Positions 33,101-62,398 of a stretch of DNA of 64,000 nucleotides are shown piece by piece. Position 1 is the stretch's first letter. Each line of letters begins with the position of its first letter. The notes under the pieces were generated by a model. That model was not told the origin of the DNA and made no database searches. It worked only from the letters and a program-made list of their open reading frames with translations. The stretch is from a virus: positions 103,541-167,540 of the IMG/VR virus record IMGVR_UViG_3300032242_000488. One strand, 5' to 3'. Position numbers and translations under genes: made by a program.

Positions 33101-36100
33101 GACATTCTTAATAATGTTTTTTCCGGGCTCTTTAATTAAGCCGCCTGCTAGATCGTTCCATAAAATTAAATTATCACTAGTATAGGGTGCCGGGCCATAT
33201 GCAGTTTCCCACCAAGTAGGTTTAACACTAAATCCTAACATTTCCCAAGGGTTAGTGTGAGGACGATCAGTGTCGTAGACTAATTTAAATATGCCTCTCC
33301 AGAAGCCGGGCAATTCAGTGCCTGTAGAAGATCTAAATTCTTTGTAGTTGTAGGTCTTTGGATTGCCACGCACAAAGAATGAATGTTTGGTATAATCATC
33401 TGCAATTAAATTTGACCAATGCAAAAAATCTCCTGCCATGATGCTGTTAAGATTATCAAAAGAGACGTCTGTAGTTCTGTTATATCCTGGAACAAAATCA
33501 TAGATATCAAATAGGCTGATATTATAGGCAACTTTAATATTGTTGTAAATTCTACGCTCAAATTCTAATAGCAAGTCGTCTCTAAAATCATTAAATGCAA
33601 CTGTTATGCTACCGTCGTGTCCTTGTATAACTTTAGTAGGAGTTTGATATGTTGTGTCAACAAAAACTTGTGGTTCAAATTTAGGATATAAACCATATTT
33701 TGTAGGGGTTGGTGGTAAGAAACAGCCGTCTGTTTTTTCGTACTGTACAATTTTTAAATTGTCACCGGATGTAATTGTTGCTAGGATATTGACAAAATTT
33801 GTATTAACAAATTCATAATCTCGACCGTATACCAATAATTCATCATTTACATATACTAATACAGCTTTTTCGCTGACTGTGTTTAAATTAAAATCAAATG
33901 TTAAAGGATATTCTGTAATCGAATTGTCAATTATATCTTGATCAAATATAAAACTAGGACCAGCAGGGACCATGTCGCTTAGATAATAAGGACTAGCTTT
34001 TGTAAAATCTTTAACTACTTCTTTTAAAATTAAATCTAAATGGATTCTTGTAACACCGTCATAGCCGTAGTCAGTTGCTTTGCGTAATAAATTTCTTTTG
34101 AATTTTGCATAGTCAAGTCTAGCTGTTTTTAATGCGTTAATCAAATTATAATTTTTATTAGTAATATGATAGGCTATTGGTAATAGAGGTGCAGAGTGTT
34201 GTACTATTTTTGTTCCAAGAGGCGTAATATTTCCTAGATCTCTAAGACTAGCAGTTCCGGGAACTGTGCCTTTAAACTTGCTAATATTATCTGCAATTGA
34301 ACTAACATGATTATTAATCTCTCCTAATGTAAATGTGTTTAAATTTAAATTTTGAGGATTATGTTCTAAATTGGATGGAAACTCGTAATAGCCGTTGATC
34401 TTAGGGGCCGCCGACATTGTTTTAACTATTAGCACATCATTAACTGATAAGTCTTTGAAAAATTCAACATAGGCTTTTTTATTGATAACTGTAATTGTGT
34501 AATCAGTGTCGTATTTTTTATGCCCGTTTAAATATATCTTAACTGTTAAATCAGTTAGCAGTCCGCTATCTGCATATGCATCAATCAAAAACATGTTGCG
34601 AACTTGGTCAACTACATACTGTCTAATGACATATTGTTGTGTTTTAGTAGTGGCTGTAATCCAGCCGTTTGCATGTTCGTGTGAAGTTAATGTATTATTA
34701 ATTCTTAAATAACCTAGCTCAATATCAATTGCTGATATTGAATTAGTACTGCTTTGGTAGGTGTGCTTGTCAGTATGTAGATTAAAATTAAAAACAATGT
34801 CGCCAAAATTTCCAATATTTCTATATGTAATATCAAATCCCAATTCAGTGTCGTAGGTAGTACCAGGCTGATAACTGAATAATTTTGTTCCTCTAAATGT
34901 AGTTCCTGGATACTTGGTTGTGTCTCCGTAACTTACACCGGTTGGGTCGACTACTTCAAACAACGGACTTTGATTTACAGTAGTCTTGTCTTGACTCTGC
35001 ATCCACACCCCGTCCATGTAATGAAACATGGCTCCTCTATACTCAGCACCATCTGTTACTAGAATAGTTTCTCCGTCTTGCGGATCAGTATCATCTGTTG
35101 GCAACAAAGTAATTCTTCGTTGGCCAAGATGTGTTATAAATTTTACTACAAATATTCTACCGGACACTCTGATGTCTGTGTCTGCGGTAAACAACACACG
35201 CATACCTTCAACTAGATCAACTTTGTCAACGTTATAGCCGTAGCTGCCTTCAACTGTAGAAAACACATCTTTAGTAAATGTATCAACTAGGGTTACGTTT
35301 TGCTTGGCAATTCGGCCAAAGTTCCATAATTGTATATTTGAGTTAAACTCGATGATTGGACGTTTAGCTCTAGCAGTTTGATCTAAAACTACCGGTTGAT
35401 TATTGGCATTAGCTGATGCTTCAATCAAATTCCTATGGAACCATCGATTATGGCGGCTCCACGGATTTCTATCTTTGCTTCCTCTATTAATAACAATATA
35501 ATCCTTACTTGCAGGAAAATTATTGTTTACATCAAATCCTTGTGTATCAAAATTTTCATTGTCAAATTCAACTTCTAAGTTGGCAGTATATGCAGAAGGA
35601 GTTTCAAGATTTTTTTCTGCTATTAATCTAATTGCTAGACCAACACCTTCAACATACCAATTACCTGTAGCGTAAATTGACGGGGTCACTTGTCCTTGAA
35701 ACGACAGTTTCATACCGTTAGATAATACTACTCCAGAACTAGTTGTATAATATTTTTTACCAACAATTTCGTTATCAATGTCAATGTGTGTTGAGTCATT
35801 GATATCATATACTGTAAAATAACCAGATGTGTTTATATCTGTTTCACTAACATAGTATAAAACATTAGGAGCATCCATTGGAACTTTAAATTCTATTGAA
35901 CCCCTACCAATGTGTTGTGCCGATGATACGACTATATTTTTATCATTTTTTATTGTGATTCCGTCAGTATATAAATCTGCATTGCCGATTGTTCTAACTG
36001 TTTTAAATGCAAATGGACGATCTTCACAGTTTATTTCAAAAGTATATGTTTGACCTCTGTATAATTTAAATTTAGGATTAGCTGTTAATCCGTCTGGGGT

Positions 36101-36658
36101 AAACAAATAAGCAAGATTATCAACTTCATTAACTAGTTTGACTGTGTAGGTACTAACGATGTCTGTAGACTGTCCTAGTACTGTTATTGGTTGTGGGCCG
36201 CTTGGTAGCCAGTAGTATTCTCTATAGTTAACAAACTTGTCCCAATCAATGTGGGGATTCCATGCATAGTATTCTTCACCATTAACTTTACTATGATCTA
36301 AAGTTGTTCCGGCAAAGAAATTTAACTGATTAACATAGTCATTGTAATCTTTAAAAAAGGTAACGTTGTCTAAAGAATCTTTAGAAACAATTGCAGGCTC
36401 AAGTTGGTATGCCGCTCTGTCTGTACTGACTTCTTCTAGATATCTATCCGATGAAGTGAACGCAGGAGTATTTTTACGACCAATAAATGCATTTACTTTG
36501 CCAACAGTTCCTTCATTGATCATCTGATCAATAGTAGCACTTAAGAACTTTTGGTTGGCCGGAGTTCTATAATATTTAGGAAGAAAATCTAACGACGTTC
36601 TTTTATTATTATCTCCAATAGGTAACGCTGATTCTTGTTGGTTGTTATCGAATGCCAT
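21191..36658 (-). CDS. Giant virion/baseplate protein, 5155 aa
   Basis: One uninterrupted frame of 15.5 kb, nearly a quarter of the window. It directly follows gp6, where T4 has gp7, so a peripheral baseplate wedge role is plausible. Seen in order: an N-terminal domain (SLDFLPKYYRTPANQKFL); a conserved region near 1250 (AEYPFSLITALTILRPAQVF); FG-GAP-like repeats at about 2090-2720 (for example FGSTIAVSKDGLKLAIGAP, FGHKVAVVGDKLFVGS), suggesting a beta-propeller; a helical coiled coil at about 3860-3970; an IPT/TIG-like Ig domain near 4760 (TVTVTGKGFKVNVKVFVGD); and two tandem repeats with VSKVSGNGAFG-type cores. GAAGGAATATTACATG is a good ribosome site. I recall similar giant proteins in cyanophage virions. 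Confidence 0.85.
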   Translation of the reverse strand: MAFDNNQQESALPIGDNNKRTSLDFLPKYYRTPANQKFLSATIDQMINEGTVGKVNAFIGRKNTPAFTSSDRYLEEVSTDRAAYQLEPAIVSKDSLDNVTFFKDYNDYVNQLNFFAGTTLDHSKVNGEEYYAWNPHIDWDKFVNYREYYWLPSGPQPITVLGQSTDIVSTYTVKLVNEVDNLAYLFTPDGLTANPKFKLYRGQTYTFEINCEDRPFAFKTVRTIGNADLYTDGITIKNDKNIVVSSAQHIGRGSIEFKVPMDAPNVLYYVSETDINTSGYFTVYDINDSTHIDIDNEIVGKKYYTTSSGVVLSNGMKLSFQGQVTPSIYATGNWYVEGVGLAIRLIAEKNLETPSAYTANLEVEFDNENFDTQGFDVNNNFPASKDYIVINRGSKDRNPWSRHNRWFHRNLIEASANANNQPVVLDQTARAKRPIIEFNSNIQLWNFGRIAKQNVTLVDTFTKDVFSTVEGSYGYNVDKVDLVEGMRVLFTADTDIRVSGRIFVVKFITHLGQRRITLLPTDDTDPQDGETILVTDGAEYRGAMFHYMDGVWMQSQDKTTVNQSPLFEVVDPTGVSYGDTTKYPGTTFRGTKLFSYQPGTTYDTELGFDITYRNIGNFGDIVFNFNLHTDKHTYQSSTNSISAIDIELGYLRINNTLTSHEHANGWITATTKTQQYVIRQYVVDQVRNMFLIDAYADSGLLTDLTVKIYLNGHKKYDTDYTITVINKKAYVEFFKDLSVNDVLIVKTMSAAPKINGYYEFPSNLEHNPQNLNLNTFTLGEINNHVSSIADNISKFKGTVPGTASLRDLGNITPLGTKIVQHSAPLLPIAYHITNKNYNLINALKTARLDYAKFKRNLLRKATDYGYDGVTRIHLDLILKEVVKDFTKASPYYLSDMVPAGPSFIFDQDIIDNSITEYPLTFDFNLNTVSEKAVLVYVNDELLVYGRDYEFVNTNFVNILATITSGDNLKIVQYEKTDGCFLPPTPTKYGLYPKFEPQVFVDTTYQTPTKVIQGHDGSITVAFNDFRDDLLLEFERRIYNNIKVAYNISLFDIYDFVPGYNRTTDVSFDNLNSIMAGDFLHWSNLIADDYTKHSFFVRGNPKTYNYKEFRSSTGTELPGFWRGIFKLVYDTDRPHTNPWEMLGFSVKPTWWETAYGPAPYTSDNLILWNDLAGGLIKEPGKNIIKNVKFLRPYLLSMLPVNENGELLAPSDIGIIDGYTSSLIEGEFRFGDQAPIESAWRRSAEYPFSLITALTILRPAQVFASCFDRVRQYRDDTGQLVYKVTNGNLRFNVSNLVVPSTADSASRVHTAGLVNYVSDYIISRQSLSEIPVYKNELTNLVTRLSTKLGGFTTKEKFKLILDSRNPLNTGNVFIPDENYNIILNTSSPVASIDYSAVIIEKAATGFIIRGYNKFLPAFKYFKSLVLNNDAGINVGGVSASFSDWLANQYYTKDSIVFFNNQYYRTSVSHRASTVFEIKYFVKLPSLPLTGGRQIVIRTKFDDTVSTLHYGAELKSIQDVVDFLLGYGAYLKSIGILFENFNTTIRTITDFQTSAKEFAFWTTQNWSEGAVISVSPCAEEVKFTQQYSVVDNIYDNFYEYSILKQDGAALSALYTGNTREGNLFTLSPKNTADGIYHATLNLVQKEHVLILDNTTIFNDVIYDQIQGYRQDRIKVVGYRTTNWNGDFNIPGFIYDRAVVKFWNQWTDYSLGDTVKYKEFYYSAKTNVPGSESFDYTSWNKLEARPEPKLIPNWDYRANQFPDFYDLDTDSFDLDQQKFAQHLIGYQKRQYLENIINDDVSQYKFYQGFITEKGTENSFAKLFDALSTSTKESLEFYEEWAIRVGQYGANAGFDEVEFRLDEVKFLINPQPVELVNSIDNTLLDFVYRVLPDQVYLKSKTYSHSPFETHNLSHYYVSTAGYVNPEDVEYKLNTIEELSSVDINKLNDGYYFWIASDKNTWNVYRFTLFENLIKKLLITNTTLRITLNRVVDTDIKVGTYIGINNSIATLEGFYKVTAVGSDYFEFDKPKLLNLADSTSLTLNLYKFVSVRLPSIEGINNLGIANKKNDDMVWVDGKDNQWAVWKYQNHYNLTTVANAKRHFGIKVAVNENNTVMIVGIENSILYYTRPTAKSTWAYREELSPVTTQDANNPNPTILLTQNSFASSISVRGDGAYLAAGAPSANATPLVVGSTSANGNRLILTSGTTANLYVNGPIAFANTTLGGVRADTTYYVSEIINSTQFRISTTLGGDVFVLESRNGAMPVYANHGYVVLYTRNANGYYVFSNLITAPTKTTNQFFGHKVAVVGDKLFVGSKGSASVPPSLTVYYISKLIAGALDSTFVPSTAMVLDPVVFTPGHELLDMSVAANGNVVLSFSNNTINGNDTIKIWNYSNNYEFNKLVQTIESPLPAKSSFGSTIAVSKDGLKLAIGAPTYSNAHLNEGAVTVYYNIPSTFSSWTVTVDGLITTSLSEITIEPGTKTITVRKSGKGLVLNVVTTFGTLKSNPAIVNAGTNYAVDDTVYIAGGDGKATYKVTQVNPTTGAVVAGVLLTRGTNYNSNPLNATIPKPLDILELQRITITRDLSNYMVGVVTSYDDATATIIVNVKEAYTPGEYVLREQLSNPYNRGSEYFGSTVRFNTVGDQLAISSAGGRQLAHTRFDANKTTFDLDATHFLETEFGSGSVMLYDHYENKFIFSDSLDVGVAVGSKYGSTVAMSDRIYVSDYNITNGAVHEFYSENKSWYKYRTPSALVNINKIKSVFLYDIENSSIITYLDIVDPLQGKILGIAEDELNFKTYYDPATYSIGDDTVVVDTLMNWKEKNIGHLWWDLSSAKFIDPNQGPILYKANSWNTVFENQMVSVYEWVESEYTPTEWDKLADTEAGLTLGISGTSKYKGTAYSVSETFDNVSKTFKKIYYFWVKNKVTVPDVIGRAVSAKDVANYISNPKNMGVSYISFHGANQFSLVNCKDLIAGRKVALNVRYWIIDNFEQSNIHSHYQLLSTSDIDKPINKYIEQKWIDSLSGFDLLGNEVPDSKLPPKLKYGIQSRPRQSMFVNRIEALKEFIERVNSVLATQSIIDEVDLTPLNSKDAVPSLGSGKYDYEISSYSQIRFVGTNDIVRAALAPVIENGKIIRVNIVTSGKGYVNPPEVIINGIGSGAKITTILGTKGQIISATVDKSGAGYLDSTTLSVRTLSVLVTSDETANNRWALYTWNSIKKTWFRERSQTYDTTRYWKYIDWYSAGYSEFTKLDHILDFAYQLPSANIEIGEIIKVNNQGIGGWVLLEKIDNQAVLETTVNYKTVGRQNGTIKFTDNLYRFAANAEGFDGPTFDSYVFDDQPKTELKIILDTVKNNIFINELAVAYKELFFASIRYAFSEQKFIDWAFKTSFVRSKHNLGPLEQKPTYQNDNLPSYQEYINEAKPYRSKVREFVSTYEVFEPTGSQISDFDLPPRYDQTTNTVIPFETTISNGILTYNSDDIKTYPYSDWLYSVGFNLTEIRIVDGGSGYVTAPIVIIEPASTSISAKAYLSSGRVSTIVINDPFGENFLTTPVIRLEGSVTDGGTPARAVAILANSLVRSTKVGIKFDRISPTYTFASIVAKETFLGSGSKTRFELAWPIDVIKTRTTVSDNNGEILGADYIVFNEIDSSYSYTRYKGILQFNSAPANLSKIIIEYHKNINLLDAADRISHFYNPESGQLGSDLGQLMQGVDYGGVEITGIGFDVGSGYDALPWFTTGYDQFDPDFTDFLIKSDGIARSFNLNYSPTEVEYINVYWTGNRSYVTATPTGTGTVNSSSLFVTNANGIKKGHSVTGIGIQSNTTVSDIVGAKITLTKALVQDASGTYTFRTTDTFNRRLDDPNYITVKPLLDTLVALKNEKASIKAALSTAQEDKDFNITLYAELTRQLGILFDARAAAEVVLNHAIEVLDAAILLGDTQIIFEAQQKKDAKQAIYDNLNTEYVTAEQDAVSAGYARDNAIALIATGAGQLAAYEGTSTIASVQIFDIFGRLILPSALRQVGQSITITGTLSHGTIQGYVSGKTYYIGEVINNTSVRLTSTYAKALLSGNDRFDVVTTAGVITPGATVRLNGKINTVQAEILNFPSIVNQEAIMNSFIGDGVSTGPIVIPNHATFTTAFGADIQAGDSIILRKNTSDGSFKPSDIQYDTQIFGGDFAYVSATGLAAEDINVDGDGFVTPTSSYAPEEIVTGQVVDTVDITVYHKIGDGSPIISTVRYLTADDNIFDIGQRPGTSTSVIVKVDGNVIKQDVNYSVNFASQQIELITNYQPGLEIVITSISQNGLNILDLDYFIGDGTTTEFVSVARWASETTAFVTVNGEATAVTTFKTDSHYTLVGTIGIRFDTAPPAGATINYTILGSAVDSISKVQKQTIIHNGVDSVYELTRSPEFAKPFADNVLVVTNGSILRPTDTFYFVVAGTSRTYTVDSSRYAFNTVDTRTVTVTVNGQSIVQGIDYFWIPVNNQLKVKKGVAKTGDKIALSIVANSDYNIIITDPTLSIELFGEYSAGTVITVITFSNHDILEIEREHDKTSSASTLVAGAQEYYRYNQLAGGRIKLRRPAVGSQYVWITLNRKLLTPEVDYALESNMNYISFSPTRVFAETDIIDIIAFSNKVTRNSFGYKIFKDMLNKNSYSRIDDASSTTLAKTLNYYDTMIELVDGSVLPDPSPRLNKPGVIFIDGERIEYLKKDNNVIRQLKRGTLGTGIKAAHNEGTLVRDQSIIQTVPYKDEFITSVAVSDGYTNGSSIYTNSAELTVSSIVFPGEDQTADLTGSQTVTVTGKGFKVNVKVFVGDVDCVVNRISDTTLTFVTPAKSVGAYDLIIYNPPIVSPTKVTTIQLTGTVTATALTTTITGLTNVRNTLRTGMIISKVSGSGSIGSNAIITEINSDTQITIKSTTANAYGSIVITGTEDVKTVTLAGTVSTAGLASTVTLTGSYTKNGITIPNVTSGLQVGQIVSKVSGNGAFGTLAIITSIDSLTTFTVTATSANTAGALVFNINNQTPTSRVVARGIKYLKISLDFKLAVPTVDNAWYRKTIPSSYNQCNDVEVFVAGRRLRKTAYTIWNPNQGPDSPSGDVAYEAEFSVSSANNQQPMQIRLTEVPEAGQYIVVQKRVGKAWTTEGVGLADSGSDPAKFIRSTYALLPDKNKV

Positions 36659-51164: not shown

Positions 51165-52250
51165 ATGAAACTATACGAAGTTCTATTAGAAGATAAGAAA
51201 CAAGTGCAAGAAGCACCTATGGGTATGCTGAATACTCTAGGTAATAAAGCTATGTCTAAATTAGGTAATGCTCGAGCTACGGGTAGACTTAGTACAGGTG
51301 CATTAGCTAATCAACTTCACAAAGAGTTTCAAACATATTTAGGTAAAACTGGGCGTGAAGCTACTAAAGATGCTGTTATGGGTTTCTTATCTAGTAAGGG
51401 ATATCCTACACAAGGTGCCGCTACTATTATTAATACTGCACTAAAAGGTGCGGCAAATGCACCTGCTGGCCCATTAGCTAATATGAAAAACACTGCTCGA
51501 GGACTTGCTGGTAAAGCTAAAGATGCAATGGTCAAACAAGCGGGCAACATAGCAGACAAACTAAAACCTGGACTTAAAGCTACCCCTATTGGTCCAGATA
51601 ATGGTGAAGAGCCAACATTGAAACCTGACACCCCAACAACTACTACCTCTGCTGATACTACGGCACCTGCCAAAACAAGCGGCAGTTATAATAATCAATT
51701 AGGCGGAACTCGTACCTATAGCCAGTCTGTAGGTAATGGTGGTGCAGATTATAACTATCAAAATCTAAGTAAGAAACTGCCAAACAAAGATGTAGATACA
51801 GTTCCAAATACTACTAATCCTACAACAACTAAAAAACCTGAAGAAGAACTACCTGGATATCTACAAAGTAAACTCCAAGGTCGCAAGACTGTTAGTGCTG
51901 GAAAAGTCAATCGTGGCAACGCATTAAAAGAAGCAGGTCCTGGTGTTTTACCACAAAATATTATTGACAAAGCTATACTCAAGGCTGCTCAAGAAGCAGA
52001 GATCTTAAACAATAAACAAGGCAAACAGTCTACACAGCAAACTAAATCGGCTAATTTATCTGGTGGTGCTCCTACTGATACAGATGGTGACGGTGATATT
52101 GATGCTACAGATACTGCTAAATCTTCATCAGGTGGTGGATTTGGTGCTGGGCTTAAGAAAGGTTTTGCTGGTAAAGCTAAAACAAGTCCGGATCTTGCAG
52201 AATTAGAACAGCGTATTGCGGCAATTGAAAAGAAAGTTGGACTAGCTTAA
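51165..52250 (+). CDS. Late protein of unknown function, 361 aa, with Ca-binding-like loop
   Basis: Expressed from a perfect late promoter, so probably a virion or assembly protein. The N-terminus (MKLYEVLLED) is a type seen on other phage structural proteins. The N-terminal third looks helical (LANQLHKEFQTYLGKTGREA). The centre is low-complexity Thr/Pro/Ala/Asn. Residues ~303-316 (DTDGDGDIDATD) match the calcium-binding loop of EF-hand/dockerin type. The C-terminus is a short coiled coil (LAELEQRIAAIEKKVGLA), suggesting oligomerisation. Its stop shares TTAA with the convergent gene. The function is unknown. Confidence 0.7.
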   Translation: MKLYEVLLEDKKQVQEAPMGMLNTLGNKAMSKLGNARATGRLSTGALANQLHKEFQTYLGKTGREATKDAVMGFLSSKGYPTQGAATIINTALKGAANAPAGPLANMKNTARGLAGKAKDAMVKQAGNIADKLKPGLKATPIGPDNGEEPTLKPDTPTTTTSADTTAPAKTSGSYNNQLGGTRTYSQSVGNGGADYNYQNLSKKLPNKDVDTVPNTTNPTTTKKPEEELPGYLQSKLQGRKTVSAGKVNRGNALKEAGPGVLPQNIIDKAILKAAQEAEILNNKQGKQSTQQTKSANLSGGAPTDTDGDGDIDATDTAKSSSGGGFGAGLKKGFAGKAKTSPDLAELEQRIAAIEKKVGLA

Positions 52251-52435
52251 AAGAAAGGTAGTCCGCTTTTCTTAGTAGTTTCAAGATTGTCTTCAACAAT
52301 CTTTCCAATAATTTCTCTATCTTCAAACGTGAGATAAAATGCGTCTTCCATAGTGATCGCACCTCTCATGTACCACGCTAACTTAAATAGTTCTAATTTG
52401 AAATTTTTGGCTTCATTATCTATATGATCCACCAT
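52247..52435 (-). CDS. gp51-like/tail chaperone C-terminal frame, expressed by -1 frameshift from gp26
   Basis: As an independent ORF it encodes 62 aa from ATG 52435 (contains LFKLAWYMRGAITMEDAFYL and a helical end). The same frame is open further upstream to the slippery site at 52477-52483, adding 14 residues (RVRLFTIPLEDALR). It is in the -1 frame relative to gp26, whose stop lies just after the slip site. The fusion would be gp26 plus about 76 residues. The layout is that of tail assembly chaperones (G/GT type). No ribosome site is visible at the internal ATG. Assignment to T4 gp51 is by position and unproven. Confidence 0.75.
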   Translation of the reverse strand: MVDHIDNEAKNFKLELFKLAWYMRGAITMEDAFYLTFEDREIIGKIVEDNLETTKKSGLPFF

Positions 52436-52470
52436 CCGGAGAGCATCTTCAAGTGGTATAGTAAAGAGCC

Positions 52471-53328
52471 TTACGCGAAAAAACTTGCGGCGTCTAGTGT
52501 AATTGGAATCTCAACTATCTTAGGTGCGCCAGCGGCTTGATCTTCTTCGGTAGTTGCTATCTTTTGTACTGGGATTGCAAATTTATTTTTTTGTATTTCT
52601 AAATGATCCATAATAGCTTTGAAGAAATCTTTGTCAGCATTATCAATAAATTCTTTAATAAATTCAGGATCACTAGTTTCGCCGTCAGGCGTTACAATCT
52701 TAACCACGCTGTTAGTAACCATATCAACATTGATGTCGGTTAACTTTTTAAATGCGGCGTTAAACAACTCCATCTTTTTAGTATCTTCCATCTTGTCATC
52801 GTTGACAATGCTAAAAATACGTTGTTCTTCAAGAGTTTTGATGGCAGTTTGCGTAAACTCTTTATAGGTCAACGGTCTTACATAGGCTTTAAGATTATCA
52901 CCAATTTGAATTTCGTTGTCATACGCGGCATTTAATAATGAGTCAAGCACTAGACGTAGGTCTAATTCAAATGATCTTGAATCTTCAATAACTGGAATAG
53001 TTACAGTAATATCTAGTTTTTCACCATAAGTAGCTAGACGAATAGCAATTAAAATTGCATCCATATCTACACTTGGGATAGACCAAGCGTTCTTAATACT
53101 AGGGAAACAACTATGAATAACATCCACAGTTGCTTGTCCGTTCATTAAAGCATCAGGAGTTTTCATTACTAACTCATCCTTTGCTGTCATTGCGTAAACG
53201 GGATATTCTCCGTTTTCAGATTTCTCTAGGGTGCCTGGAGGATAAAAATTGCCACTACTGGGCAACCTAATATAAATCTTGGGCTGTCTAAAGTACTTCT
53301 TTAACGGGTTTAATGTTTGATTTTCCAC
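52471..53328 (-). CDS. 26: gp26-like baseplate hub / tail assembly protein
   Basis: Matches the T4 gp26 family (T4 baseplate protein): PKIYIRLPSSGNFYPPGTLE, KDELVMKTPDALMNG, and VDVIHSCFPSIKNAWSIPSVDMDAIL are characteristic blocks. The start is set at GTG 53328, 9 nt after GGAG; a TTG at 53343 in the same frame would overlap that ribosome site. The last codons contain T TTT TTC followed by GCG TAA, giving a -1 slip option into the adjoining frame. It is divergent from the tape-measure candidate, with a late promoter 42 bp upstream. Confidence 0.85.
   Translation of the reverse strand: MENQTLNPLKKYFRQPKIYIRLPSSGNFYPPGTLEKSENGEYPVYAMTAKDELVMKTPDALMNGQATVDVIHSCFPSIKNAWSIPSVDMDAILIAIRLATYGEKLDITVTIPVIEDSRSFELDLRLVLDSLLNAAYDNEIQIGDNLKAYVRPLTYKEFTQTAIKTLEEQRIFSIVNDDKMEDTKKMELFNAAFKKLTDINVDMVTNSVVKIVTPDGETSDPEFIKEFIDNADKDFFKAIMDHLEIQKNKFAIPVQKIATTEEDQAAGAPKIVEIPITLDAASFFA
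52477..52483 (-). other. -1 ribosomal frameshift slippery heptamer (T TTT TTC)
   Basis: On the minus strand the end of gp26 reads A AGT TTT TTC GCG TAA. T-TTT-TTC fits X-XXY-YYZ exactly in the gp26 frame, and both tRNAs can re-pair after slipping one base back. The new frame stays open for 76 codons. Only a weak short stem (GTAA with TTAC) follows within 20 nt. Confidence 0.8.
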
Positions 53329-53369
53329 AGGGTTTAACTCCAACTAAATAAAGGATATGATATCATATT

Positions 53370-53404: not shown

Positions 53405-56400
53405 ATGGCAGATACCACAGTAACCGGTAAAATTGGTGATCAAGAAGTACAGCTGATCAATGCGGCCAGCGAAGCTACGCTTCAAAAACTACTTGAAGCC
53501 TTTAATAAAATGAACGGTACCAGCTCTGGAGGAGGAAGTGGCGGCAGCTCTGGAGGTGGCGCCGCAGGCGGCACAGTTGGCAAAGCTGCCACTGGTACTG
53601 CTACTGCTCTTAACAAAGCAGGAGAAGCAGTTGGTAAATTTGCAGGAGCAGTTGCAGATGCCACAGGTAAACTGTTAGGATTTGCAGGAAACATAATTGG
53701 CGGCACTGCTAAAGTTATGATAGACTTGGGTAAAGAATTACTAACAGGTGGAGAAAGAGTTAGTGACTTTACTAAACATTTAGAAAATTTACCTAGTATA
53801 TTTGGTGTACTTGGAGGACTAGTACATTCTCTTTCTCAATTTATAGACAAGAATATTGATACATTCCGCCAACTTTCTCAAGTAGGTGCTAATTTTGGAA
53901 ATAGCATAGACGGCATGAGACAGGCAGCTGCCGAATCAGGCATGGGCTTTGATCGTTATACTGCATTAGTAAAAAATAATGCAGAAACAATGGCATTATT
54001 TGGCGGCACGGTATCGCAAGGAGCAATAGCATTTGGTAAGTTTAGTAAAGATTTCCGCCAAGGCGATACAGGTAAAAAATTATTAGCAATGGGATTCAGC
54101 ATAGACGAAATCAACGACAGTCTAATTGCATATTCCAATATTAATAGTCGTGCAGGACGTGATCGTATACTTGACACTAGAGAACTAGGTGAAGCATCTG
54201 GAAGATTTGCTATAGAATTAAACAAAGCCGCAGCCGCAACAGGACTTAGCAGAGGAGAACTTGCCAAAAAAGCAGATGCATTAAACAAGCAAATAGACAT
54301 TGCCGCTTTGGCCAGTAGATTCCAAGGTAAGGACCGAGAAAAATTTATAGCTGGTATGGCTCAAATTACCAGCTCTTTTGGTGTTGGATCCGAAGCACTA
54401 TTAGAAGGTGCTCGAGGATTTATTAATTCGTCAGATGGTATTGCATTAAATGCTCTTGCTCCTGAGCTAATGTCAACTATGCAAGACTTTGCTACTAACG
54501 GCGGCGATGTTAATGAAAAAATGAATAAGATGATCCGTGCCGCACAAGAAAAAATAGCATTTTATCAAAAGCCTGAAAATGCCGCAATGCTAAAAGCACA
54601 AATGGATACTATTCCCGGATTTAAAACAGCTTATGCGGCCATAGCAGAAATTGCTAGCAGAACAGTTAAGAGTGCAAAAGACATACAAATAGAAGCTGAC
54701 AAGGCTGCACAAAATGACACATTAACAGGGTTTTATCAACAGTTTTCAGAAACTATTAATAATTTTAGAGGATCTCTAGAATCAACATTTATAAAAAGTG
54801 ATTTCTTTAAAAACATTAAAAAAATGATGGATGATTTTTCTAAAGGTGGTAGTACTAGTTTAGGTGATATCCTTAATCGTATCACAGCTGGGTTTAAAAC
54901 TTTTCTAACAGCACTTGACGATTTTTTAACTGATGTTCAGAATCCTACACTTGGTTGGAGCGGAGCAATAAAGAAACTCTACGAAAACATGATAACAAAT
55001 TTGTTTAACATAAAACCTGAAGATTTAATTGACAAAAATGGTCAAGCATTAACAGTTACACAGGCTGCTATGGGTATTATAGGTAAAGCAATAGGCGAAG
55101 CATTTACTGCTATGTGGCCTGGAATTAAAGAAGTTATTGTATCAGGCTTTAAGACTCTATGGGAAGACAAAGACATTAGAGAAGCAGGGATCAAAGGCAT
55201 CCTAGCTCTTTTTGCAGTATGGGCCGCATTTAAAGTTGGCGGTGGATTACTAAGTGGTATTGGTGGTCGCATGGCTGGAGGTGCTACTACTGGCGGAACA
55301 GTGGCAGCTGGCGCAGAGTCGGGCGGATTCTTAGCAGGTCTTGGACAGCAATTTACACAAGCCGCTGGTTGGTTAATGAAGGGGGTTGCCATTGGTGCAA
55401 GTATGGTAGCCATTGGTTATGGACTTGGCAAACTAGCTGAAGGTATGGCACCATTTAGTGAGATTGAATGGGAAACAATGGGCAAAGCAGGAGTAACATT
55501 AGGAGTGCTAACAGGTGCAATAATGTTATTAGGACAAGTTATGGAAGGTCCTCAAATTGCCGCATTTGCTATTGGCACCGCCGCAATCGCCGCGCTTGGC
55601 TTTGCATTAAGAGCGTTCCCTGCAGATGTATTAGATAGTTTATCAACTATGATGGCTACGGCATTTGAAGGTGTAGGTAAAACTATTGAGCGTGTGTTTA
55701 ATGGTATTAGTGGCATTATTGGTAAGATCACTGAGATGCGTACTGCAATGGTTAAAGCAACCACTGATCAAATTAAAGAACTTGCCGCTATCCCTGCAAC
55801 AAATATGTTGGCCGCCGCCGCAGGTATTGATGCAATAAAGAAAGCATTAGACGGATTTAGTCCAGGATTCTTAGGCGGTCTAAGCGAAGGTCTTGGTAGT
55901 TTGTTTGGCAAAGACAAGATAGGCCCACTGCAACAAATGGCAGTTTTAGGACCACAATTACAGAATGCCGCCGCTGGGTTTACTGCGTTTAAGACAGCAA
56001 TAGATGGTATGAAACTAGCCAATTTGTCTATGACTAGTGATCAAACTAGTAGTTTTGAAACATTAACCAAACGTCTGCCAGAGTTTACTACAACAATGAC
56101 AGCATTAGGTACACAAGCCGCTAATATAAATGCTACCGCAGAAGCAATTAATGCGTTTAAAGCCGCAACTACAGGATTTAACCTTAAAGACTTTTCATTC
56201 TCTAAAGAACAGCTAACCAGTCTAGCAGACGGAACTACCAAGCTAAGACAGTTATCTGAACAACTAAGAGCCAGCAAAGATGGTTTCCAAAAGTTAGATG
56301 AACAAGGACTCAAAAACATCAAAGAAGGTGTTGAAGGACTAAGCAAAGCGTTCAAAGACTTTAACGAAAGTTTCCTTACTAAATTCTTACCAAAGTTTGA

Positions 56401-56557
56401 TGAACTTAAGAGTAAAACACAAGAAGGACTCATGACTGACATAGGAACCAAGTTAGATACGTTAAATAGTAATGTAGCTTCTCTAATTGCAATTGAAGAC
56501 ACTTCCAAGAAATATTTGGATACTATTGTCACTAAGAAAGCTGGCAAGATTTATTAA
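53405..56557 (+). CDS. Tail tape-measure protein candidate, 1050 aa
   Basis: A long, Ala/Gly/Lys-rich, largely helical protein with hydrophobic segments at about 600-620 (GILALFAVWAAFKVGGGLL), 655-680 (LMKGVAIGASMVAIGYGLG), and 690-730 (VTLGVLTGAIMLLGQV, IAAFAIGTAAIAALGFAL), as in tape-measure proteins. A Gly/Ser linker lies at residues 38-60. Its position beside gp26/tail chaperone and before the portal supports the role. T4 gp29 is the corresponding protein at 590 aa; a longer one would predict a longer tail. A GGTGA-type site precedes ATG 53405. Confidence 0.7.
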   Translation: MADTTVTGKIGDQEVQLINAASEATLQKLLEAFNKMNGTSSGGGSGGSSGGGAAGGTVGKAATGTATALNKAGEAVGKFAGAVADATGKLLGFAGNIIGGTAKVMIDLGKELLTGGERVSDFTKHLENLPSIFGVLGGLVHSLSQFIDKNIDTFRQLSQVGANFGNSIDGMRQAAAESGMGFDRYTALVKNNAETMALFGGTVSQGAIAFGKFSKDFRQGDTGKKLLAMGFSIDEINDSLIAYSNINSRAGRDRILDTRELGEASGRFAIELNKAAAATGLSRGELAKKADALNKQIDIAALASRFQGKDREKFIAGMAQITSSFGVGSEALLEGARGFINSSDGIALNALAPELMSTMQDFATNGGDVNEKMNKMIRAAQEKIAFYQKPENAAMLKAQMDTIPGFKTAYAAIAEIASRTVKSAKDIQIEADKAAQNDTLTGFYQQFSETINNFRGSLESTFIKSDFFKNIKKMMDDFSKGGSTSLGDILNRITAGFKTFLTALDDFLTDVQNPTLGWSGAIKKLYENMITNLFNIKPEDLIDKNGQALTVTQAAMGIIGKAIGEAFTAMWPGIKEVIVSGFKTLWEDKDIREAGIKGILALFAVWAAFKVGGGLLSGIGGRMAGGATTGGTVAAGAESGGFLAGLGQQFTQAAGWLMKGVAIGASMVAIGYGLGKLAEGMAPFSEIEWETMGKAGVTLGVLTGAIMLLGQVMEGPQIAAFAIGTAAIAALGFALRAFPADVLDSLSTMMATAFEGVGKTIERVFNGISGIIGKITEMRTAMVKATTDQIKELAAIPATNMLAAAAGIDAIKKALDGFSPGFLGGLSEGLGSLFGKDKIGPLQQMAVLGPQLQNAAAGFTAFKTAIDGMKLANLSMTSDQTSSFETLTKRLPEFTTTMTALGTQAANINATAEAINAFKAATTGFNLKDFSFSKEQLTSLADGTTKLRQLSEQLRASKDGFQKLDEQGLKNIKEGVEGLSKAFKDFNESFLTKFLPKFDELKSKTQEGLMTDIGTKLDTLNSNVASLIAIEDTSKKYLDTIVTKKAGKIY

Positions 56558-56569
56558 TAGGATAACACA

Positions 56570-58273
56570 ATGAGTTGGAAAAAGTATTTTTCACCCGTAG
56601 CTAGTAACCAGTCGGGAACAGTTAGCCCAATCTACGGCAGTGGTGGAAAGCCAGGTCCAGCCCGCACAAATTATTCTAGTTATCTACCGGATGTCTATTC
56701 AGGAAGTCCAAATCGTATTGAACGTTATATGCAATATGACACAATGGATTGGGACAGTGAAGTTAATGCCGCATTAGACATTCTAGCAGAATTTACCACA
56801 CAAAAGAACAAAGAAAACAACACACCATTTACACTACAATTCCGTGGTAGCCCAACAACTAGTGAAGTAGGCATCTTAAAAGAATACCTACAGCAATGGT
56901 CTAAGATGCAGAAGTTAGACACACGCATGTTCCGTATTGCACGTAACTTGTTCAAGTATGGTGACGGATTTTTCCTACGTGATCCAGAAACACAAAAATG
57001 GTTCTATGTAGATCCAAGCAAGATTACAAAAATTATTGTCAACGAAAGCGAAGGTAAACAGCCTGAGCAGTATGTTATCCGTGATATTAACATCAATTTT
57101 CAACACCTAGTTGTTACACAGATCAATCCTAATACACAGAATCAAGCACCTGGAGCCGCACCATATACACAAGGTGGTGGTGGTGGACGTGGCATGGTTG
57201 GAACTACAACTCCTATTCCTGGAAGTAGATTTAGTCTTGCACAAAACGAACACGCTATTGAAGCAAAACACGTAGTACATCTAAGTCTAAGTGAAGGACT
57301 TGACAATAACTTTCCTTTTGGAAATAGTCTTTTAGAAAGTGTTTTTAAAGTCTACAAGCAAAAAGAACTGTTAGAAGATGCTATCATTATCTATCGTGTG
57401 CAACGTGCGCCAGAGCGCAGAGTATTCTATATTGACGTAGGTAACATGCCTAGTCATTTGGCCATGGGCTTTGTTGAACGTGTAAAAAATGAAATACATC
57501 AAAGACGTATTCCAAGTGCTACAGGCGGTGGAAGCGCAATTGACAGTACATATAATCCTTTAAGTATTAACGAAGACTACTTCTTTCCACAGACAGCAGA
57601 AGGTCGCGGATCAAAAGTTGAAACACTTCCAGGCGGCACTAATCTAGGCGAAATTGACGATTTACGTTACTTTACCAACAAGTTAATGCGAGCATTACGA
57701 ATTCCAAGTAGCTATCTGCCAACAGGTGCAGATGATAGCCAAGCACAGTATAACGATGGTCGCGTTGGCACAGCATATATTCAAGAACTACGCTTTAACA
57801 AGTATTGTGAACGCCTACAAAATCTAATGGTCACTACATTTGACACTGAGTTTAAGTTATTTTTACATAACAAAGGTGTTAACATTGACTTTAGTTTGTT
57901 TGAAATCAAGTTCCAAAGTCCACAAAACTTTGCCGCTTATCGTCAAGCAGAGCTGGATAATCAGCGTATTGCAACATTTGCACAGATGGTTGCACTACCA
58001 TTTGTCAGCAAGCGTTTTGCACTAAAACGCTTCTTAGGTATGACAGACGAAGACCTGAAAGAAAACGAAAAAATGTGGCAAGAAGAAAGCGGAGAAGGCA
58101 AGGCACCTGGACAAGATGCCGCTGGACAACTACGTGGTGCAGGTGTAAGCCCAACAGGAATGGAAGCAGATACAGCCGCATTAGACGGTAGTGAAGAAGC
58201 TCCTGCTGACATGGAAGTTCCAGATGAAGGCGCAGAAATGGCTGGTCAAGAAGCCGGATCAATGCCCGCTTAA
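56570..58273 (+). CDS. 20: Portal vertex protein gp20-like
   Basis: Forms the dodecameric DNA entry channel of the head. Typical gp20 segments: NRIERYMQYDTMDWDSEVNA, ALDILAEFTTQKN, RIARNLFKYGDGFF, YRVQRAPERRVFYIDVGNMP, DDLRYFTNKLMRALRIPSSYL. The length of 567 aa is near T4 gp20 (524). The C-terminus is acidic and Gly/Ala-rich. It starts 12 bp after the tape-measure candidate with AGGATAACACA in front, so it shares that transcript. Confidence 0.95.
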   Translation: MSWKKYFSPVASNQSGTVSPIYGSGGKPGPARTNYSSYLPDVYSGSPNRIERYMQYDTMDWDSEVNAALDILAEFTTQKNKENNTPFTLQFRGSPTTSEVGILKEYLQQWSKMQKLDTRMFRIARNLFKYGDGFFLRDPETQKWFYVDPSKITKIIVNESEGKQPEQYVIRDININFQHLVVTQINPNTQNQAPGAAPYTQGGGGGRGMVGTTTPIPGSRFSLAQNEHAIEAKHVVHLSLSEGLDNNFPFGNSLLESVFKVYKQKELLEDAIIIYRVQRAPERRVFYIDVGNMPSHLAMGFVERVKNEIHQRRIPSATGGGSAIDSTYNPLSINEDYFFPQTAEGRGSKVETLPGGTNLGEIDDLRYFTNKLMRALRIPSSYLPTGADDSQAQYNDGRVGTAYIQELRFNKYCERLQNLMVTTFDTEFKLFLHNKGVNIDFSLFEIKFQSPQNFAAYRQAELDNQRIATFAQMVALPFVSKRFALKRFLGMTDEDLKENEKMWQEESGEGKAPGQDAAGQLRGAGVSPTGMEADTAALDGSEEAPADMEVPDEGAEMAGQEAGSMPA

Positions 58274-58280
58274 TAAATAC
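58273..58280 (+). promoter_or_regulatory. Late promoter element (ATAAATAC) touching a start codon
   Basis: AATAAATACTATTATGA spans the portal stop codon and the next ATG (58285). The same 17 bases occur at gp25 on the other strand. Confidence 0.75.
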
Positions 58281-58284
58281 TATT

Positions 58285-58521
58285 ATGATTTTAAGAGAAC
58301 TTTTTTACTTTAACAGAGATACTGCCAAGTCTGAACAAGACGATCAGTACATGGCTAAAGCTGACACAGGTGTTATCAAAGACGATGACACTCGTAAAAC
58401 AAGATTGACCTTAAAACAAATCAATGAACTACGCAGAGCTAGCGACCTACACATTAAAGAACACGAAGCAGAGATGGAGTTTATTTCTAGGATGTATGCC
58501 ACTCCAGTGGCAGCAGAATAA
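58285..58521 (+). CDS. Small prohead-region protein, 78 aa (gp67-like by position)
   Basis: Lies between portal and prohead core genes, where T4 has gp67. It is highly charged and helical (LTLKQINELRRASDLHIKEHEAEMEFISRMY). The start codon sits 4 nt after a late promoter core, so its message is predicted to be leaderless. A terminator follows. The family is not certain. Confidence 0.65.
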   Translation: MILRELFYFNRDTAKSEQDDQYMAKADTGVIKDDDTRKTRLTLKQINELRRASDLHIKEHEAEMEFISRMYATPVAAE

Positions 58522-58526
58522 GTAAC

Positions 58527-58544
58527 TTTGTCAAAACTGACAAA
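58527..58544 (+). repeat. Hairpin (TTTGTCA/TGACAAA) between two late genes
   Basis: Perfect 7-bp inverted repeat with an AAAC loop, directly before a second terminator-like hairpin. It may add to termination. Confidence 0.45.
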
Positions 58545-58550
58545 AAATAG

Positions 58551-58571
58551 CCGGTATTGACCGGTTTTTTT
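58551..58571 (+). terminator. Intrinsic terminator
   Basis: CCGGT, loop ATTG, ACCGG, followed by seven T. The stem is short but G/C-rich, and a new late promoter follows 10 bp downstream. Confidence 0.7.
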
Positions 58572-58580
58572 ACAGTAGTA

Positions 58581-58588
58581 TTAAATAC
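58581..58588 (+). promoter_or_regulatory. Late promoter element (TTAAATAC) for the prohead core/capsid operon
   Basis: GTATTAAATACATCG lies just after the terminator and 52 bp before ATG 58640. It differs from the others in one base and should drive the scaffold, protease and capsid genes up to the terminator at 62421. Confidence 0.65.
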
Positions 58589-58639
58589 ATCGACAGCCTT
58601 GCGGGCGTAACTGCCTCATAACTATACAGGAGACATAAC

Positions 58640-59473
58640 ATGACTGATCGCGCAAAGTTCGAGCAGATGCTTGAATATCTTATTAACGAAGACAAATCAA
58701 AAGCCGAGGAACTATTCCACGAACTAGTGGTAGCAAAATCTCGCGAAATTTACGAAAATCTACTAGATGATGACATCCAAGTAGAAGCATCACACGATGA
58801 TGACGAAGACGAAGACGAAGATATGGAAGAAAACTTCGACATGGGTATGCAAGAAGTCGGTGCTGATCCAGCAGACGACATGATGGGCGACCTAGAAGCC
58901 GGCGACGAAGAAGGCGGCGACGAAATGGGTGACGAAGAAGGTGGATCTGAAGCCGCTACTAAAGATGACGTAATGGACATCAAAGACGCTTTAGAAGACC
59001 TAAAAGCAGAATTTGAAGCTATGCTAGCTGGCGAAGCCGGTGAAGAGCACGGCGAAGAGCACGGCGAAGAAGAAATGGGTGACGAAGAAGGTGATGAAGA
59101 AGAAATGGAACAACACCAGTTCGAAGCATCCAATGATGATGACGAAGATGAAGACGAAGACATGGACGAAGGTATGGTCCGTGAATACGTTGAGAAAGTT
59201 GCACCTGCAAAGATGGGTGACAACGGTCAAAATACTCGTTCAACAGTAGCTGGTAAGAATGATATGGGCGGTACAACTGCTAATATCGCTAAAGGTGGAA
59301 CAAGCACAACAGGCGGTACTAAAGGTGGTTTACTAAACCCAAGCACAAAAGATTTGAACTCTGGTAACGTAAATGTTCCAGGTGGCAAAGCTGGTGTTAA
59401 ACATCTTAAAGGTGTTAGCAAGCCAGCAGGTGGCGACAACGGCCAAAATACAAAGAGTACTTTAGGTCGTTAA
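58640..59473 (+). CDS. Very acidic prohead core protein candidate, 277 aa
   Basis: About residues 1-45 are helical; 45-180 are dominated by Asp/Glu; 195-277 are Gly/Thr/Lys-rich and flexible. Two motif pairs repeat: EASHDDDEDEDEDMEE (49-64) with EASNDDDEDEDEDMDE (162-177), and GDNGQNTRST (193-202) with GDNGQNTKST (265-274). The charge and place directly before gp21 fit an internal scaffold protein such as T4 gp67/gp68, though no sequence match is claimed. AGGAG precedes the ATG. Confidence 0.7.
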   Translation: MTDRAKFEQMLEYLINEDKSKAEELFHELVVAKSREIYENLLDDDIQVEASHDDDEDEDEDMEENFDMGMQEVGADPADDMMGDLEAGDEEGGDEMGDEEGGSEAATKDDVMDIKDALEDLKAEFEAMLAGEAGEEHGEEHGEEEMGDEEGDEEEMEQHQFEASNDDDEDEDEDMDEGMVREYVEKVAPAKMGDNGQNTRSTVAGKNDMGGTTANIAKGGTSTTGGTKGGLLNPSTKDLNSGNVNVPGGKAGVKHLKGVSKPAGGDNGQNTKSTLGR

Positions 59474-59477
59474 TCAG

Positions 59478-60107
59478 ATGAGTCTTTACTTACGTGAAAA
59501 CTTGACTTTCGACCAAGCTCGCATGGTTGTTGAGTCGGATGGCCAAGATGGAAAGAACCTTTATATGAAAGGTATCTGCATCCAAGGCGGCATCCGAAAC
59601 GCAAATCAGCGTGTGTATCCTGTTAATGAAATTGGCAGGGCTGTCAAGACACTAAACGACCAGGTAACTGGCGGATATTCAGTTTTAGGCGAAGTAGACC
59701 ATCCAGATGATTTAAAAATTAACCTAGACCGTGTAAGCCATATGATCACAGAAATGTGGATGGATGGCCCTAACGGTTACGGTAAAATGAAAATCCTTCC
59801 TACACCAATGGGTAACCTAGTGCGTACTATGCTAGAATCCGGTGTTAAGTTAGGTGTTAGCTCACGCGGATCCGGGAACGTCAAGGAAGACGGTTCCGGT
59901 GAAGTTACAGATTTCGAGATTATCACAGTGGATGTGGTAGCTCAACCATCAGCCCCAGGTGCGTATCCAACGCCCATTTATGAGCATATCATGAATACTC
60001 GTGGAGGCTATAAGGCATTTTTAACAGCACAAGAAGTATCAGGCGACGCAAAGGCACAGAAATACCTGAAAGAAAGTCTATTGAAGATAATAGGCGGACT
60101 CCAATAA
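59478..60107 (+). CDS. 21: Prohead core protease gp21-like
   Basis: Serine protease that matures the prohead by cleaving scaffold and capsid proteins after (L/I)xE. Seen: GEVDHPDD with the catalytic His75, LGVSSRGSG with Ser128/Ser129 (one being the nucleophile), and the DVVAQPSAPGAYPTPI block. The length of 209 aa is near T4 gp21 (212). It starts 4 bp after the acidic protein. Confidence 0.95.
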   Translation: MSLYLRENLTFDQARMVVESDGQDGKNLYMKGICIQGGIRNANQRVYPVNEIGRAVKTLNDQVTGGYSVLGEVDHPDDLKINLDRVSHMITEMWMDGPNGYGKMKILPTPMGNLVRTMLESGVKLGVSSRGSGNVKEDGSGEVTDFEIITVDVVAQPSAPGAYPTPIYEHIMNTRGGYKAFLTAQEVSGDAKAQKYLKESLLKIIGGLQ

Positions 60108-60123
60108 CAAGGGAGAATCACAT

Positions 60124-61215
60124 ATGTTGGACGCACTTAAACAATTATTCGAGAACAATGTGATTTCTGAAGAGATCAGAGCTGATATCACGGCTGCTTG
60201 GGACCGTAAGATCCAAGAAAACCGTGAACAAGCTACTCAACAACTACGCGAAGAATTCGCACAAAAATACGAACATGACAAGCAAACAATGATCGAAGCT
60301 ATCGACAAGATGGTTACTGATCGTTTAACTGCTGAAATCCAAGAATTCACAGAAGATCGCGCACAGCTAGCCGAAGCGAAAGCCAAGTATGCTGTTGCAA
60401 TCCGTGAGCATTCTACTAAACTAAATGGATTTGTTCTTAACAGCCTAGCTAAAGAAATCACTGAATTACATAGTGACCAAAAAGTTATGGCTGAAAATTT
60501 TGCCAAGTTGGAAGGTTTCATTGTAGAAGCTCTAGCTAAAGAAATCGCTGATTTCTATGAAGATAAGAAAGATTTAGCTGAGACTAAGGTACGTCTCATT
60601 AAAGAAGCTAAAGAACAATTTGGTCTATTAAAGACCAAGTTTGTTAAACAAAGTGCTGAGCTTGTTGAATCAGTTGTCACAAAAGGTCTCTCAAAAGAGA
60701 TCGGACAACTTAAAGAAGACATTGATCAAGCACGTAAGAACGACTTTGGACGTAAGATTTTTGAAGCATATGCTACTGAATTCCAGCACAGTTTGTTAAA
60801 TGAGAAATCTGAGACAAGCAAGCTATTGCAAGTAGTTGCAGAAAAAGATAAACAACTCGCTGAAGCAAAGGCCGCTATTTCCGAAAAGCAAGCATTAGTA
60901 GAAAGTACACAGCAACAAGTTGCTCGTGCTCAAGCTACTGCGGCTCGTAAAGAAGTAATGGGTGAGCTTCTAAGTCCTTTGAACAAGGATCAGAAAGAGA
61001 TTATGAGTGAGTTACTAGAAAGTGTGCAAACTGCCAAGCTAAGAACTAGTTTTGACAAATATCTACCTGCTGTACTCAGCGGTAGCACACCGGAGAAGAA
61101 GAAGGCTCTTGTAGAGGCAAAAGAAATCACAGGCAATAAAGAAAATCATAGCATTAGTAGTGCTAATAGCCAGGGCGAAGTAATAGACATTCGTCGCCTA
61201 GCTGGATTAAAATAA
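60124..61215 (+). CDS. 22: Prohead scaffold protein gp22-like, 363 aa
   Basis: Long alpha-helical, Glu/Lys/Gln-rich protein (REQATQQLREEFAQKYEHDK and similar heptads throughout), as expected for the main head scaffold. The end (LNKDQKEIMSELLESVQTAK) resembles the conserved C-terminal part of gp22 proteins. It holds LxE-type sites (such as LLESVQ) for gp21. At 363 aa it is longer than T4 gp22 (269). AAGGGAG precedes it; gp23 follows after 10 bp. Confidence 0.88.
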   Translation: MLDALKQLFENNVISEEIRADITAAWDRKIQENREQATQQLREEFAQKYEHDKQTMIEAIDKMVTDRLTAEIQEFTEDRAQLAEAKAKYAVAIREHSTKLNGFVLNSLAKEITELHSDQKVMAENFAKLEGFIVEALAKEIADFYEDKKDLAETKVRLIKEAKEQFGLLKTKFVKQSAELVESVVTKGLSKEIGQLKEDIDQARKNDFGRKIFEAYATEFQHSLLNEKSETSKLLQVVAEKDKQLAEAKAAISEKQALVESTQQQVARAQATAARKEVMGELLSPLNKDQKEIMSELLESVQTAKLRTSFDKYLPAVLSGSTPEKKKALVEAKEITGNKENHSISSANSQGEVIDIRRLAGLK

Positions 61216-61225
61216 GGAGAAATTT

Positions 61226-62398
61226 ATGTCAGAACTACTAGAAAGCCGCTGGCAAGAAACTAAAGAGGCACTATTAGAAGGCCTTCAAGGAACCAAAAAG
61301 AGCGTAATGGCTACTACTTTAGAGAATACTCGTAAGTACTTGTCAGAATCTGCTACAGCTGGTGCCACTTCTGCCGGTAACGTTGCAACCCTAAATCGTG
61401 TGATCCTTCCAGTGATCAGACGTGTAATGCCAACAGTCATTGCTAATGAACTAGTTGGTGTACAACCAATGACTGGACCAGTTGGACAAATCCACACATT
61501 ACGTGTTCGCTACAGCGATACATACAATGCAGGAACATCTGGTGCAGTAGCTGGTGAAGAAGCTCTATCACCATTCAAGATTGCTGAAAGCTACTCTGGT
61601 GCTACTTCAGGACGTGCTGCCTCAACAGCCGCTCTAGAAGGCGTAGCAGGTAACAAACTAAGCATTCAAATCTTGAAGCAAACAGTTGAAGCCAAAACTC
61701 GTAAGTTGTCTGCTCGTTGGACATTCGAGGCTGCTCAAGATGCACAAGCCCAACAAGGCATTGACATCGAAGCAGAAATCATGGCTGCACTAGCACAAGA
61801 AATCACAGCTGAAATCGATCAAGAGATCCTAGCATCTCTAGCATCATTAGCTGGTACACAAAACTACGAAACGTATGATCAGAGCAACGTATCTGGTACA
61901 GCTACATTCGTTGGTGACGAACACGCCGCATTGGCAGTTCAAATCAACCGTGTTGCTAACCGTATCGCTCAGCGTACACGTCGTGGTGCTGGTAACTGGG
62001 CAGTTGTTAGCCCAACAATGTTGACTGTTCTACAGTCTGCAACTACTAGCGCATTTGCTCGTACAACAGAAGGTACATTCGAAGCTCCAACTAACACAAA
62101 GATGGTTGGTACATTGAATAGTGCTATGAAGATCTATGTTAATACCTATGCAGGTACAGACGACATTCTAATCGGTTACAAAGGTTCTAGCGAATCTGAC
62201 GCAGCCGCTTTCTATTGCCCATACATTCCATTGATGAGCAGTGGTGTTGTTTTAGATCCGTCAACATTCGAACCAGTCGTATCATTCATGACACGTTATG
62301 GTTACGTTGAATTGACAAACACAGCGTCATCTCTAGGTAACGCTGCCGACTATCTAGGTACTGTTCAAGTAACTAGCGGTGAACTAAAGTTCAGTTAA
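61226..62398 (+). CDS. 23: Major capsid protein gp23-like, 390 aa
   Basis: Seen: LNRVILPVIRRVMPTVIANE, GVQPMTGPVGQIHTLRVRY, and GNWAVVSPTMLTVLQSA, the classic gp23 blocks, plus the C-terminal FMTRYGYVELT. A likely maturation site for gp21 is LSE (39-41) before Ser42. At 390 aa it is shorter than T4 gp23 (521), largely lacking the inserted domain. AAGGAG lies 7 nt before the ATG. A strong terminator follows. Confidence 0.96.
   Translation: MSELLESRWQETKEALLEGLQGTKKSVMATTLENTRKYLSESATAGATSAGNVATLNRVILPVIRRVMPTVIANELVGVQPMTGPVGQIHTLRVRYSDTYNAGTSGAVAGEEALSPFKIAESYSGATSGRAASTAALEGVAGNKLSIQILKQTVEAKTRKLSARWTFEAAQDAQAQQGIDIEAEIMAALAQEITAEIDQEILASLASLAGTQNYETYDQSNVSGTATFVGDEHAALAVQINRVANRIAQRTRRGAGNWAVVSPTMLTVLQSATTSAFARTTEGTFEAPTNTKMVGTLNSAMKIYVNTYAGTDDILIGYKGSSESDAAAFYCPYIPLMSSGVVLDPSTFEPVVSFMTRYGYVELTNTASSLGNAADYLGTVQVTSGELKFS

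Follow-up and report, generated by a model that had tools for sequence, protein, structure and literature searches.

In phage lambda, gpGT, the long minor form of gpG, reportedly arises from a -1 slip late in the first gene, a mechanism credited to Levin (1993) and to Xu, Hendrix and Duda (2004). For the T4-like phages, an account of the tail assembly chaperones (gp26 and gp51 in T4) is said to have been given by Vladimirov, Gautam and Davidson (2022, Virology 566:9-15). As conveyed by the papers that cite this account, frameshifting in T4-like phages in general is already described: poly-T slippery sites are known in their TAC-N genes (PMC12846349, citing Vladimirov et al. 2022), and some T4-like phages do without frameshifting, having one short gene and a second, longer gene that is a fusion (PMC10885494, citing the same work). 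The first-pass annotation of the present locus was not aware of an established account for T4-like gp26; going by these two citing papers, there is one for T4-like phages. We found no naming of the lineage studied here in the literature on T4-like chaperones, where Vladimirov et al. 2022 is represented through its citing papers. Both gp26 and gp51 of T4 are given as chaperones of hub assembly in PMC3004832. Sullivan 2010 (PMC3037559) treats gp51 as a shortened gene, lists it as missing in Aeh1, and does not mention frameshifting. A conserved -1 frameshift at a poly-T site has also been described for the TAC locus of phage Adele and the Vandenendeviridae/Andersonviridae (PMC12846349).

Here, we are discussing the gp26 locus of a viral DNA stretch of 64,000 nucleotides ("the window"), at which, judging from sequence comparison, a programmed -1 ribosomal frameshift very probably gives rise to a short (gp26) and a long (gp26 plus gp51-like) tail assembly chaperone. 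This extends a known mechanism of tail assembly to a branch of environmental and jumbo T4-like phages about which little is known, and corrects many annotations in which the second half is shown as a separate gene or missed (RaK2, PA5oct, Aeh1).

The gp26 Junction and the Proposed Frameshift

By direct reading, gp26 ends with GCC GCA AGT TTT TTC GCG TAA on the minus strand (Table 1). The first T of TTTTTTC is the third position of its codon, resulting in correct X XXY YYZ phasing. The in-phase heptamer, the -1 frame open for 76 codons and on to 52247, and the short ORF devoid of a ribosome site had been pointed out in the first-pass annotation, and all three are confirmed. The -1 frame is open from CGC at 52477 through the stop ending at 52247. 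No Shine-Dalgarno-like sequence is found among the 5–10 nt preceding the ATG at 52435 in the window, and this codon is probably not a real start. At the other end of the gene, the mechanical start of the ORF is TTG 53343, with GTG 53328, preceded by GGAG at 53341-53338, being the more likely one. The long isoform is predicted to comprise about 360–365 amino acids.

Table 1. Features of the gp26 junction (positions in the window)
Feature	Position	Strand	Remarks
gp26-like ORF, short isoform (TAC-N)	52471..53343	minus	PF12322 and phrog_150 matches
Slippery heptamer T TTT TTC	52483-52477	minus	in gp26 phase, two codons ahead of the stop
Zero-frame TAA stop of gp26	52471..52473	minus	3 nt past the heptamer
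-1 frame extension, gp51-like C-terminal domain	52247..52477	minus	76 codons, RVRLFTIPLEDALR...SGLPFF, then stop
Internal ATG of the short ORF	52433..52435	minus	no Shine-Dalgarno sequence ahead; ATG not kept by relatives
Downstream region, site of the relatives' hairpin	52414..52472	minus	weak pairing in the window, z = 0.35

On the basis of this arrangement, ribosomes translating gp26 would slip one base back at U UUU UUC. Most of them would terminate at the nearby zero-frame stop and release the short TAC-N product, and a minority would continue in the -1 frame, yielding the long fusion TAC-NC. If the pair works as lambda G/GT does, the tape measure protein would be coated by the gp26 part, tail tube subunits would be brought in by the extension, and both proteins would be absent from the finished virion.

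Conservation of the Slippery Site

Relatives were picked from IMG/VR by gp26 protein similarity and not by the presence of the heptamer. The junction is reached in 79 of 80 loci (L070 ends before it), which together with the window represent 50 distinct junctions. TTTTTTC is present in all 79 loci and in 50/50 distinct junctions, so that relatives lacking the heptamer, which the first-pass annotation had named as counter-evidence, were not encountered. The aligned junctions combine the conserved in-phase heptamer with an uninterrupted -1 frame that, on every contig of sufficient length, stays open for 75 codons beyond the stop (72 in junctions of the L073/L074 type, where the stop lies 9 nt later) and that leads into a conserved domain in those relatives whose contigs extend to its end. 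The spacing to the domain is fixed, and the frame relation is always -1.

Among 13,860 other gp26 codon positions, slippery heptamers of whatever kind occur in frame only 65 times, once as TTTTTTC; given its occurrence in 50/50 junctions, the junction heptamer is, therefore, far beyond chance. Judged by codon choice, its conservation also exceeds what conservation of the protein explains. The two Phe residues are kept at the junction, and the preceding residue varies (N, S, T, A) with its third base always being T; elsewhere in these genes, 79% of the Phe codons are TTT, and Phe-Phe pairs are encoded by TTT TTC in 2/20 cases. For the given residues, and if the 39 clusters (<85% alike) were independent, xxT TTT TTC would be found in all of them with a probability of about 10^-38, a figure that is only indicative because the clusters share ancestry.

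Lack of an Independent Start

Alternatively, the downstream domain could be a gene in its own right, with a start of its own or with termination at the gp26 stop followed by reinitiation. It is annotated as its own gene in P-SSM2, HTVC008M, KVP40, BF and PBECO4, and in P-SSM2 types an ATG follows the gp26 stop at a distance of 2 nt; the internal start used by T4 gene 26 is, moreover, non-standard. However, no conserved start codon or ribosome site for the domain was found in the 50 junctions. Its first in-frame ATG ranges from codon 1 to codon 36, a start with a 4-nt Shine-Dalgarno sequence occurs within the first 40 codons in only 11/50 junctions, and 27/50 have no ATG, GTG or TTG within the first 18 codons of the -1 frame. 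Still, coding constraint is seen there: just past the stop, ahead of most possible starts, pN/pS is 0.44 in the -1 frame (0.41 in the startless sequences alone) compared with 0.96 and 1.44 in the other frames. The extension is under purifying selection in the -1 frame. The second domain, thus, lacks its own initiation site, as is typical of a frameshifting chaperone. Further points against a separate gene are the constant -1 relation with its fixed spacing, the invariant heptamer, and the fact that the P-SSM2-type ATG sits inside the 5' arm of the hairpin described below. Taken together, a separate gene is very unlikely. The frameshift proposed in the first-pass annotation is supported by the heptamer kept in relatives, by the fixed spacing and by the lack of a conserved start or ribosome site downstream; a strong ribosome site of the short gene or a variable distance to gp26, also considered there, is not what the relatives show.

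Downstream Hairpin and Upstream Element

In the window group, the minimum of the folding energy among 81 offsets falls precisely at 5 nt past the heptamer (-13.2; mean over offsets -6.3, SD 1.8). Stems with 6 or more pairs that begin at +5 are present in 29/50 window-group junctions and, at the same +5, in 38/61 distinct junctions of P-SSM2-, HTVC008M- and KVP40-like loci, versus about 4% in the respective controls. The P-SSM2-type stem differs greatly in sequence from that of the window group, with its position being the same. For the near-arm helix, 70% of cells are paired, compared with 35–51% when the arm is slid, and its covariation is above that of shuffles, although related sequences inflate the excess. 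The window's own hairpin is weak, and its nearest relatives likewise have only a weak stem. RNAalifold consensus folding over the whole junction alignment gave no common structure, because the position of the 3' arm differs between subclades; the stem was detected by single-sequence folds and position controls instead. In most P-SSM2-type cyanophage junctions, a GAGGG element is found 9–10 nt ahead of the heptamer, where the Glu codon is GAG in 54/57 cases versus 25% elsewhere. Both the +5 hairpin of most relatives and the GAGGG element of these cyanophages would probably raise the slip rate.

These elements also bear on transcriptional slippage, in which mRNAs of altered T number, made on the T run, would encode the long form. 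In its favour, the conserved T run extends to 7 in Cr30, phiM12, HTVC008M and XacN1. Runs of 6, on the other hand, are usually too short for it, most lineages keep exactly six Ts followed by C in ribosomal phase, and the +5 stem and the cyanophage GAGGG act on ribosomes, making transcriptional slippage a most improbable source of the long form.

Distant T4-Like and Jumbo Phages

The slippery site reaches well beyond the window group. An in-frame site lies at the same point in 10 divergent jumbo records with about 26–38% gp26 identity, reading TTTTTTC in nine (Atu_ph07, Phosso, BF, RaK2, PA5oct, PBECO4, CBB, Vibrio 2.275 and SCTP-2) and TTTTTTT in XacN1; the zero-frame stop drifts between +3 and +33 nt from the heptamer across these records. 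The gp26 junctions of P-SSM2, S-PM2, phiW-14, KVP40 and Aeh1 contain TTTTTTC, and those of Cr30, phiM12 and HTVC008M contain TTTTTTT. Every intact junction of P-SSM2-, HTVC008M- and KVP40-like loci has the site, with seven Ts in the HTVC008M type; in one HTVC008M-like contig (L200), a premature stop, probably a sequence error, interrupts the gp26 frame well before the junction. The organisation is that of a frameshifting chaperone, in which the first ORF has a slippery site in phase close to its end and the second ORF is open in the shifted frame.

In Aeh1 (L213, reverse strand), TTTTTTC is followed by a 57-codon -1 extension and, going by this reading frame, the gp51 reported as missing is present in that form. 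In RaK2 (L086, 3325-3543) and PA5oct (L087, 3331-3555), the gp51-like extension has no annotated gene and exists only as a -1 frame.

A chance heptamer followed by a decayed remnant frame without a product would leave neither coding constraint nor a confidently predicted fold of the extension (see below), and it is refuted by the conservation across distant lineages; no point in its favour was found, and its probability is next to nil.

Identity of the Two Domains and Their Neighbourhood

Window gp26 matches Pfam PF12322 (T4_baseplate, E = 3.5e-12, 46.9 bits versus a curated cut-off of 24.5) and phrog_150 (baseplate hub, E = 8.9e-16). Its AF2 model (pLDDT 82) has a fold matching viral gp26/hub models, with no PDB match among solved structures at E ≤ 0.001. 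Further fold matches (E about 1e-7 to 4e-3) are uncharacterised proteins of 500–690 amino acids from jumbo phages such as RSF1, phiEaH2 and RP12, which, going by the models, are possibly unrecognised chaperones. The extension, which carries a conserved WYMRG core, is modelled as a helical hairpin (pLDDT 89) and matches the Moogle tape measure chaperone only weakly (E = 2.4).

PF12322 matches both T4 gp26 and T4 gp51, in keeping with the gp26 and gp51-like names given in the first-pass annotation. The short "gp51" of cyanophages and KVP40 matches only the C-terminus of T4 gp51; hence, the short product of the window would correspond to T4 gp26 and the long one to T4 gp51. A direct profile comparison of the window-group extension with T4 gp51 aligned to the wrong part and was discarded. 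Stepwise profile links lead from the window group to the RaK2 group (P = 2e-10), from there to the cyanophages (P = 6e-4), and on to the T4 gp51 C-terminus (P = 1e-5). The description of the neighbouring frame as gp51-like, thus, stands as far as its resemblance to the C-terminus is concerned; gp51 of T4 is no downstream frame but a paralogue of full length, lying on the opposite strand.

The T4-like nature of the window is evident from portal gp20, protease gp21 and major capsid gp23 at 56570-62398. In HTVC008M, the gene order is tube, gp26, gp51, tape measure, the same place as that of lambda G/GT, and the KVP40 order is consistent with a chaperone between tail tube and tape measure. From these T4 and lambda parallels, we infer a chaperone function of the gp26/extension pair. 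Adjacent to gp26 and divergent from it is a gene of tape measure size (53405-56557, plus strand, 1050 amino acids) without a match in Pfam, PHROG or phage records; its candidacy as the tape measure could not be confirmed by any family match. A single ORF of 5155 amino acids (21191-36658, minus strand) is located among the tail and baseplate genes.

Proposed Frameshifting versus Gene Duplication

The slippery site is present in all related junctions except where a lineage carries PF12322 twice. This applies to T4 and RB43, which lack the heptamer, and to Campylobacter phage NCTC12673, which likewise lacks it and has a second copy. This latter copy (L116:2483-3795), which has a gp51-like end, is split by a TAA into gp022 and gp023; this may reflect a broken copy of the long form, an error in the sequence or a further case of recoding. 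The window record (167.5 kb, possibly incomplete) has one PF12322 copy and one copy of the extension, and does not show the T4-type duplication, in which there are two copies of PF12322 and the C-terminal domain is in frame with one of them.

We consider it rather likely that a single cassette, consisting of U UUU UUC, a 5-nt spacer and a hairpin whose sequence changes freely, was already present in the ancestor of the T4-like superfamily, many jumbo phages included; that T4, RB43 and the Campylobacter phages each swapped it for duplicated short and long copies; and that frameshift extensions so far overlooked account for the "missing" or shortened gp51 of cyanophages, KVP40 and Aeh1. The locus offers a natural comparison of two routes to one protein pair, frameshifting and gene duplication.

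Comparison with Known Systems

The gp26-gp51 pair of cyanophages and KVP40 shares arrangement, heptamer and frame relation with the window. T4 gp26/gp51 likewise belong to the PF12322 family and comprise a short form and a long form with the C-terminal domain, but are encoded by two genes, whereas the window has one gene and a probable -1 frameshift. The Adele TAC locus is similar in being a myovirus chaperone with a poly-T -1 site and a C-terminal piece misannotated as its own gene; it differs in its phage families and in its GTTTTT motif. With lambda gpG/gpGT, the window shares the proposed -1 slip close to the end of the first gene, a likeness in workings that is not drawn from sequence similarity. 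In contrast to lambda, where the slippery site is GGGAAAG, the window has T TTT TTC, its zero-frame stop lies only 3 nt past the site, and the adjoining large gene is divergent in its lineage.
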